In this document: piece by piece, positions 35,450 through 36,909 of the stretch
Numbering within the stretch: the stretch's first letter is position 1
How the letters are laid out: each line of letters begins with the position of its first letter
Assembly (NCBI GenBank): GCA_038850735.1
Contig: JAWCLO010000009.1
Location: 1 to 64,000 of the forward strand
Direction: 5' to 3'
Length of the DNA stretch: 64,000 nt
Origin: Methanomassiliicoccales archaeon
Lineage (GTDB): Archaea > Thermoplasmatota > Thermoplasmata > Methanomassiliicoccales > JACIVX01
Program-made: the position numbers and the translations under genes
Notes under the pieces: generated by a model
What the model was told of the DNA's origin: nothing
The model's input: only the letters and a program-made list of their open reading frames with translations
Databases searched by the model: none

Positions 35450-36214
35450 CTAATCCCTCGTCAAATCTTCCCCGCCTGAAAAGTATTGTTGAATGGTGTT
35501 ATAAATATCTTCCAGACCGTAAGAAAGCTCTGCTGAAACTGGGGTTAGTTCCCTGTACATACCTATGCTCTCAAGCGCCTTAAAGAGCTCTAGACTGAGA
35601 AGCGTCTGAGAGGTACCGGTCGTCCCCTCAAGTGCAATGTTCAATGCGTATGGATCTCTTGACCAGTTGAGGATCGTTTCGAGTTCTTCATCCGTCAGTA
35701 CATCGACTTTTGAAAGAACGTTGAGGATGGGGATGGCGAATCTAAAATGGGTGATGGCACACAGCATGAGGTCTGATACAAAGCCAGAGGGGGTCTTCGC
35801 TAACTGCGGATCGGACAGGAAAACGAGGAATGAATCTTCCCTTCCAAATTCGTTGACGACGACATTACTCGATTGTCTGAATGCAAATAATTCCATCTGG
35901 CCAGGCGTATCTATAAGCACGTAGTTTGTCTTGAATTCCTGCACGGTTGAAACAACTTCCTTAATGTTCAATGCTATCAAATCGGCACAGACGATTTGCG
36001 CACCATTAGGTCCAAGACCATATTCATTCATGATTTCATTCAAACGAATCCAGTCTCTAATGTCCACATCTGGAACATAGGGTATTGCCTCTGCACCTGG
36101 ATCAAGATTAACGATTATAGAATCAAGCCCCTGAAGCTCCAGCCAATCATGAAAAGCATATGTAAGAGTACTTTTCCCACTGCCTGCCGTGCCGATGAAA
36201 TATATATATTGCAT
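35450..36214 (-). CDS. GPN-loop GTPase
   Basis: 254 aa P-loop GTPase of the GPN family. In eukaryotes these assist RNA polymerase assembly; the archaeal role is not settled. Motifs: P-loop IGTAGSGKST, NLDPGAEAIPY, the GPN tripeptide in YGLGPNGAQ, YVLIDTPGQMELFAFR, LNVLSKVDVL, and C-terminal PVSAELSYGLEDIY. The ATG at 36214 is chosen because an upstream ATG at 36286 would place the start inside the tRNA gene. The gene begins 18 bases after the tRNA 3' end, so the tRNA and this mRNA may be one primary transcript. Confidence 0.92.
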   Translation of the reverse strand: MQYIYFIGTAGSGKSTLTYAFHDWLELQGLDSIIVNLDPGAEAIPYVPDVDIRDWIRLNEIMNEYGLGPNGAQIVCADLIALNIKEVVSTVQEFKTNYVLIDTPGQMELFAFRQSSNVVVNEFGREDSFLVFLSDPQLAKTPSGFVSDLMLCAITHFRFAIPILNVLSKVDVLTDEELETILNWSRDPYALNIALEGTTGTSQTLLSLELFKALESIGMYRELTPVSAELSYGLEDIYNTIQQYFSGGEDLTRD

Positions 36215-36232: not shown

Positions 36233-36328
36233 CGGGCCCGGAGGGAAATTCGGATTCTTGACGAATCTTTCGAACCCTCGACCCATCGGTTAAGAGCCGA
36301 TTGCTCTACCTAGCTGAGCTACGGGCCC
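36233..36328 (-). tRNA. tRNA-Lys (anticodon CTT) with a 22-nt intron in the T loop
   Basis: The minus strand folds as a full tRNA. Acceptor GGGCCCG pairs with CGGGCCC; discriminator G; no encoded CCA. D arm GCTC/GAGC with loop AGCTAGGTA. Anticodon stem ATCGG/CCGAT with loop CTCTTAA, anticodon CTT. Variable loop GGGTC. T stem GAGGG/CCCTC. The T loop is 29 bases instead of 7. Removing the 22 bases at 36247-36268 restores TTCGAAT exactly. The gene is 96 bases, mature length 74. A TATA box lies 25 bases upstream of the 5' end. Confidence 0.93.
36247..36268 (-). other. tRNA intron with bulge-helix-bulge splice motif, position 59/60
   Basis: The T stem (GAGGG/CCCTC) is the outer helix. TTCG pairs with CGAA as the central 4-bp helix. 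The 3-base bulges are AAA on the 5' side and TTT on the 3' side. GATTC/GAATC closes the intron hairpin over GTCAA. Cutting each bulge after its second base releases 22 nt and joins TTCGAA to T. This symmetric 3-4-3 geometry is the canonical substrate of archaeal splicing endonuclease, here in a non-canonical place. Confidence 0.9.
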
Positions 36329-36348
36329 CGTGGCGCCATATAGGTCAT

Positions 36349-36357
36349 TATAAATAA
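36349..36357 (-). promoter_or_regulatory. tRNA-Lys promoter TATA box
   Basis: On the minus strand AAATTTATTTATAAT is centred about 25 bases before the first base of the mature tRNA. Transcription would begin almost at the mature 5' end, leaving little or no leader. Confidence 0.6.
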
Positions 36358-36480
36358 ATTTAATGGTTGCATAGGCTCTAGGCACAGCTCGCCAGAAGCA
36401 CTTTTTGCTATTTTTCATCCATCAGAGCGATCTTTAATCCAGATTATGTACCGTAGTCTGCCCTGGGCGCAATAGGTTTC

Positions 36481-36909
36481 ATGAAGGACATAGTTGAAGG
36501 GATGTACTATTGCAGGAAGCTGCAGGAGGCGGGTTGCAGCCTCATACTCGTCAAGGACGCTTTCCTCGGGCAGGTGGATACGAGCACGCCCATGGGCGAG
36601 TTCATGCTCGCTGTGATCTTCGCCGTCGGGCAGCTCGAAAGAAAACTCATCCTCGAGCGCACGAAGGAAGGGATAGCGAAGTACAAGAAAAAATACGGGA
36701 AGTGGGGGAGGGAGAAGAGGAAAGACATCAATATCGAGCTCGCCGCAGAGATGATCAAGGTCAAGCCTCTCGCAGAAGTCGCGAGGATCCTCAAGGTCCC
36801 GCGCTCTACCCTGCGCGAGCACCTGCTGCGCGCGGGTGTCGAAATTCCGACAAAAGGGGAATGTCGGAATACCTCCCCCGAAAAAACCGGGGGTTGTTTA
36901 AATACCTAA
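36481..36909 (+). pseudogene. Serine recombinase (resolvase/invertase), 5'-truncated remnant
   Basis: 142 aa. It matches the second half of a serine recombinase: the end of the catalytic domain DTSTPMGEFMLAVIFAVGQ, the E-helix LERKLILERTKEGIAKYKK, and a C-terminal helix-turn-helix VARILKVPRSTLREHLLRAG. The first 60 or so residues, including the catalytic Ser and most catalytic Arg residues, are missing, and a TAG lies in frame just upstream. It should therefore be inactive. The DNA is much richer in G+C than its neighbours and uses GC-ending codons, a sign of transfer. The last 15 codons run through two hairpins and may not be native protein. Confidence 0.75.
36844..36893. repeat. Two tandem hairpins at the end of the recombinase remnant
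   Basis: ATTCCGAC (36844-36851) and GTCGGAAT (36863-36870) form an exact 8-bp inverted repeat. CCCCCG (36875-36880) and CGGGGG (36888-36893) form a second stem, followed by TTGTTTAAAT. The second looks like an intrinsic terminator. The first could be an element end or recombination site. Confidence 0.5.

Follow-up and report, generated by a model that had tools for sequence, protein, structure and literature searches.

A bulge-helix-bulge intron in the T loop of a Methanomassiliicoccales tRNA-Lys(CTT) gene, and introns at the same position in related Thermoplasmata

The window analysed here, a stretch of 64,000 nucleotides of contig C9, belongs to a Methanomassiliicoccales (phylum Thermoplasmatota) MAG of 1.66 Mb, a 98% complete draft in 24 contigs. 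On the minus strand of the window a tRNA-Lys(CTT) gene occupies 36328..36233; the gene is complete and has, at position 59/60, a 22-nt intron (36268..36247). We consider it highly probable that this is a working, single-copy gene for tRNA-Lys(CUU), the precursor of which would lose its 22-nt bulge-helix-bulge (BHB) intron to a homodimer-type endonuclease and have its exons joined by RtcB. By all comparative tests of the sequence, the gene is functional. It reads GGGCCCGTAGCTCAGCTAGGTAGAGCAATCGGCTCTTAACCGATGGGTC-GAGGG-TTCG-AAA-GATTC-GTCAA-GAATC-CGAA-TTT-CCCTC-CGGGCCCG (36328..36233), and the features of the locus are as follows.

36233..36328, minus strand: tRNA-Lys(CTT), unspliced, 96 nt, from G1 at 36328 to the discriminator G73 at 36233; CCA is not encoded
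36269..36328, minus strand: 5' exon, 60 nt, ending at T-loop position 59; same sequence in the intron-less alleles of relatives
36247..36268, minus strand: 22-nt intron AGATTCGTCAAGAATCCGAATT, position 59/60
36253..36267, minus strand: inner helix of the intron, five pairs, GATTC (36263-36267) with GAATC (36253-36257), closing the loop GTCAA (36258-36262)
36233..36246, minus strand: 3' exon, 14 nt, comprising T60, the 3' half of the T stem (CCCTC), acceptor CGGGCCC and G73
36271..36274, minus strand: BHB central helix, 5' strand TTCG (T54-G57 of the T loop)
36249..36252, minus strand: BHB central helix, 3' strand CGAA, intron-internal
36268..36270, minus strand: 5' bulge AAA, predicted cut 36269/36268; also AAA in the intron-bearing Lys(CTT) relatives inspected
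36246..36248, minus strand: 3' bulge TTT, predicted cut 36247/36246; CAT or TAT in relatives, with T60 always last
36241..36245, minus strand: outer helix, which is the T stem, 3' strand CCCTC pairing with GAGGG (36275-36279)
36348..36358, minus strand: TATA-box-like TTTATTTATAA, about 20-30 bases upstream of the tRNA, assigned by sequence comparison only
35450..36214, minus strand: GPN-loop GTPase (PF03029), the adjacent downstream gene, separated from the tRNA by 18 bases
36481-36909, plus strand: serine resolvase, truncated (only positions 81-142 of the PF00239 profile), lying upstream of the tRNA at a distance of about 150 bases

The two 3-nt bulges lie on opposite strands with a 4-bp helix between them and are framed by the outer and inner helices. 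Excision between the second and third base of each bulge takes out 22 nt, leaves a 74-nt tRNA and restores TTCGAAT. Together with the other arms (acceptor GGGCCCG, D arm GCTC..GAGC and anticodon arm ATCGG-CTCTTAA-CCGAT with anticodon CTT), this yields a standard, perfect tRNA whose exons are base-perfect. The initial annotation had described a tRNA-Lys(CTT) with a perfect 3-4-3 BHB at 59/60 and a spliced TTCGAAT. Every one of these elements lies where that annotation placed it, and ARAGORN called the spliced 74-mer tRNA-Lys(ctt); the strand (minus), absent from that annotation, is added here. Its expectation that simple gene finders would overlook the gene was also borne out, as ARAGORN reported no tRNA in the unspliced 96-nt gene and none in the whole window, and Rfam RF00005 scored the unspliced gene at 28.4 bits, just below the cut-off of 29. 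tRNAscan-SE 2.0, which models such introns, mainly for Crenarchaeota and Thaumarchaeota (PMC8450103), might find it. Finders that lack a BHB model miss these genes, so Thermoplasmatota MAGs will seem to lack part of their tRNAs.

The minimum-free-energy fold of the precursor (-43.4 kcal/mol, z -4.2) contains the exact T-arm BHB; the D and anticodon arms are mispaired in this whole-precursor fold. When the intron was shuffled, the central 4-bp helix arose in 2.5% of trials, and the central 4 bp together with an inner helix of at least 5 bp in about 0.01% (P about 1e-4). Conservation of the BHB intron in relatives excludes a chance origin. Among relatives with a findable Lys(CTT) gene, the intron occupies the identical site in all genomes of family f1 that have the gene (G000-G004), in family f4 (G008) and in 2 of 15 genomes of family f6 (G043 and G028); in a further f1 genome (G005) the Lys(CTT) T arm was seen at a contig edge. 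Intron-less Lys(CTT) genes with an unbroken TTCGAATCCCTC or equivalent (intact TTCGAAT) were present in the other f6 genomes and in those inspected from f3 and f2, and they differ from the intron-bearing alleles by exactly the intron. The Lys(CTT) introns have AAAGRTT and CCGA as common ends and therefore look homologous, with apparently precise losses elsewhere. In their alignment all pair cells are standard pairs, and two of the five inner-helix pairs have changed on both sides (A-U to G-C and C-G to U-A), a pattern matched by 1 of 500 shuffles. The helices are held by compensatory change, and the site is kept in relatives.

The surroundings of the gene are likewise shared. The f1 and f4 relatives retain both a TTTATTTA box some 30 bases upstream and the order of tRNA-Lys(CTT) followed by the GPN GTPase. 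A protein scan with this GTPase gave matches in Methanomassiliicoccales and Methanomassiliicoccus MAGs, and in DYTM01000026 the same tRNA adjoins the same GPN GTPase gene as in relative G003. The assignment of the genome to its order and phylum rests on these nearest named relatives. The serine resolvase fragment looks like a decayed mobile-element remnant. One reading that is compatible with splicing, and that we regard as unlikely, is that the intron is kept for breaking the tRNA 3' integration site of mobile elements, as opposed to being a neutral passenger. Position 59/60 falls in a region of tRNA genes where integrases often act, and the truncated resolvase lies 150 bases upstream of the gene; however, this remnant lies 5' of the gene, the integrases usual at tRNA genes are not serine recombinases, and the absence of the intron from most f6 genomes and from f3 suggests no strong constraint.

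The initial annotation had proposed a search for an intact second tRNA-Lys(CTT) as a check for decay. None was found in the 98%-complete, 24-contig draft, either with Rfam or with the Lys 5' half as query. The 5'-half search returned one further gene, Lys(TTT) at C5:45554 (minus strand), and apart from this the remaining tRNAs found in the genome are all of other isotypes. Since the genome is a draft in 24 contigs, there is still a small possibility of an unassembled second Lys gene. In the Lys(TTT) precursor, non-canonical introns interrupt both the D loop, at 20/21 (central helix CTAG:CTAG), and the T loop, at 59/60. From their sequences, both tRNA-Lys genes of the genome need T-loop splicing, and with a 59/60 intron in each, every lysine codon appears to be splicing-dependent. 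In f1 and f6, the T-loop intron of Lys(TTT) forms a relaxed BHB, in which an additional base opposite the 5' bulge is conserved.

The genome is intron-rich, with introns in about half of the tRNAs found. A one-intron cloverleaf scorer was used for its tRNAs, and the two-intron Lys(TTT) and a few divergent tRNAs were read by eye. Canonical 37/38 introns occur in many of them, and further D-arm introns in, for example, Thr(CGT), Ala(CGC), Val(TAC) and Leu(CAA). The Rfam search of the genome found no Trp, Leu(TAG), Arg(TCT) or Arg(CCG) tRNA, and targeted searches for Arg(TCT) in the same genome also found none; some of these may be hidden by multiple introns or lie in assembly gaps.

It is very improbable that the gene is a decayed tRNA-Lys(CTT) with a chance insertion in its T loop, the work being done by a second, intact gene. 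Decay would agree with the sub-threshold Rfam score and the missing ARAGORN call of the unspliced gene, but no second Lys(CTT) was found, the exons are base-perfect, same-site introns occur in several genera with compensatory changes, and shuffled introns yield the BHB about once in 10,000. Neither damaged stems or consensus bases nor a redundant intact gene, the marks of a tRNA pseudogene, was seen in this genome. A plasmid search gave only ordinary bacterial tRNA matches, to the 5' half of the gene. The pseudogene and chance readings were both rejected, given the lack of a redundant gene, the perfect exons, the conserved site and the rarity among shuffles. We give hardly any credence to a precursor that stays unspliced and a tRNA that works with an enlarged T arm: the 39-nt extended T hairpin is stable alone (-13.3 kcal/mol), but the TTCRANY loop and the elbow needed in translation would be destroyed, the bulge and junction geometry is conserved beyond the needs of a mere hairpin, and the intron-less alleles differ by precisely the intron.

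In the preferred reading, that of a working gene with a spliced precursor, the 22-nt BHB intron would sit in the T-loop hairpin of the transcript. There T54-G57 (UUCG) would pair with the CGAA of the intron, so that the T loop would not form and the D-loop/T-loop elbow would be unavailable as a recognition handle. Because neither T loop nor elbow could exist before splicing, with the intron engaging T54-G57, recognition would have to rest on the BHB. The two-unit endonuclease is predicted to recognise the BHB itself and to cut both 3-nt bulges directly after their second base, after which RtcB would join the A59-ended exon to the T60-led exon; the spliced T-arm product would be expected to carry GGTTCGAATCCC. 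We infer that splicing precedes modification of T54, T55, C56 and A58, and likewise infer the transcription, cuts and joining of the Lys(CUU) precursor. Excision of the intron is presumably the work of the usual archaeal enzyme for tRNA splicing. We take Ferroplasma to be a relative, in Thermoplasmatota. The homodimeric Ferroplasma enzyme cleaves minimal BHB substrates at 30 C as well as BHB introns in hairpin loops (PMC8707768), and BHB-based recognition agrees both with this enzyme and with the strict motif found here.

The splicing endonuclease of the genome is one ORF of 352 aa with two full PF02778+PF01974 units, both PF01974 copies being intact, which fits the earlier suggestion that a simple homomeric-type enzyme could cut the intron. 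The active-site Tyr/His/Lys are in the second (C-terminal) unit only. Its best PDB match was 5x89, the Methanopyrus kandleri beta+alpha protein (1e-42), followed by A. fulgidus alpha'2, 2GJW (E 1.7e-33), alignable from query residue 53. The turn FYGKKIGDALQLS is of the same length as in wild-type A. fulgidus 2GJW, and in the catalytic unit no CSL/ASL insertion separates the YG turn from LSLIE, the site of such loops being judged from PDB 3p1y, a chain with an insert there. A Lys directly after YG is invariant in ten aligned members of the order and frequent in other orders. The enzyme thus has the single chain, the two EndA units and the C-terminal-only triad of alpha'2, with no CSL/ASL insertion, but at 352 aa it lacks the reduced first unit (total about 290-305 aa in A. 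fulgidus/Thermoplasma). Since its first unit is not reduced, we filed it outside plain alpha'2; as judged from sequence, it is a long two-unit variant of the homodimer type. RtcB is encoded by one gene copy, and both the splicing endonuclease and the RtcB ligase are present in the same genome.

An intron at 59/60 had been thought unusual for a Thermoplasmatota-like genome. The genome does belong to this phylum, but the position proved to recur both in this order and in others of the class. The 59/60-junction pattern had matches in 97 of 147 genomes and 29 of 30 genera of the order, with few for the reversed control, and in 203 of 300 genomes at class level; these totals are upper estimates that include some non-tRNA matches (e.g. 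L112, L116, L119, L151 and L164), and our tRNA claims are limited to inspected loci. At such loci the T-loop intron was seen in Arg(TCT) in all six families f1-f6, and introns at 59/60 in Lys(TTT) in f1, f3, f5 and f6 and in Arg(CCG) in f1 and f5. Beyond this order, Lys(TTT), Arg(CCG), Arg(TCG), Gly and Val tRNAs are among the loci inspected in the class. The Arg(TCT) 59/60 intron (loci L095, L097-L099, L103, L104, L107, L108, L113-L115, L117 and L120-L122, and further L126, L129, L131, L133 and L136-L138) is paired with a 37/38 intron in most families and occurs without it in f2 and f5. Family f22 is almost without the 59/60 pattern (2 of about 44 genomes), and so are f18, f30 and f33. The T stem has five pairs in 74 distinct pattern matches. 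In 45 of these an inner helix of 4 bp or more forms in strict register, and in another 11 it forms with a single extra base opposite the 5' bulge; shuffled interiors gave about 2% for each form. The one-extra-base form, a mildly relaxed motif, is typical of Lys(TTT). T-loop introns proved to be widespread in class Thermoplasmata, a class-wide distribution that seems to be unreported in the open literature: we found no paper on T-loop introns in Thermoplasmatota in the open-licence literature, and some of these genes may already be annotated in GtRNAdb.

Thermoplasmata endonucleases split into long two-unit and short forms (L031, L188-L211). In 30 sampled genomes the long endonuclease goes with T-loop introns, one f3 genome being without pattern matches, and the short one (257-320 aa, mostly with one detectable PF01974) goes with few or none. 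A single branch (87/96) sets the long form apart in a tree of the catalytic unit, so that this match between long enzyme and T-loop introns counts as a single evolutionary contrast. We tentatively suggest, as a possibility, that 59/60 T-loop introns of Lys, Arg and other tRNAs may be old and class-wide in Thermoplasmata and tied to a long two-unit homodimeric endonuclease that might reach diverse sites without CSL or ASL, perhaps via its complete first unit or the Lys of the YGK turn, both introns and enzyme being jointly missing in short-enzyme lineages. If true, there would be three routes to diverse introns, the other two being CSL and ASL.

The T-loop position was known before elsewhere, with 59/60 already listed among archaeal non-canonical intron positions (PMC4090602), and the Lys(CTT) intron is a further case of a known intron type; the more interesting result is the lineage-wide distribution of T-loop introns together with a loop-less two-unit enzyme. 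Like other non-canonical archaeal BHB introns, those described here have the BHB at the exon-intron junctions and a listed position, and several introns per tRNA also occur. The comparison set comprises Thermoproteales and other Crenarchaeota, Nanoarchaeum, ARMAN, Thaumarchaeota and Atabey-/Freyarchaeia, and many non-canonical introns are reported from Asgard archaea (PMC11291895). Unlike this set, the present case is from the Thermoplasmatota lineage and has a homodimer-type two-unit enzyme without CSL/ASL, and the Lys(CTT) motif is of the strict, not the relaxed, kind. The diversity of introns in crenarchaea and ARMAN has been ascribed to the CSL and ASL loops (PMC12397907). According to reviews, varied intron positions are linked to (alpha-beta)2 or epsilon-2 enzymes that have special loops, and the euryarchaeal alpha4 and alpha'2 enzymes cut canonical BHB motifs only. 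In the present genome, D-loop, anticodon-loop and T-loop introns occur alongside a homodimer-type enzyme without such a loop, which makes it directly testable whether motif or enzyme limits intron position. The only euryarchaeal multi-intron tRNAs in a 2014 review were from M. kandleri and Methanothermobacter thermautotrophicus (PMC4033280), which resemble the present case in having non-canonical introns outside Crenarchaeota. The M. kandleri endonuclease consists of two separate chains, (alpha-beta)2 (PMC6379350), unlike the single chain with both units here; Thermoplasmatota are not listed in these two sources on euryarchaeal precedents. In layout the enzyme resembles A. fulgidus alpha'2 (2GJW), also a single two-unit chain with its catalytic residues in the second unit and no specificity loop, from which our enzyme differs in having a complete first unit and 352 aa, compared with the shorter first unit and 305 aa of A. 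fulgidus.
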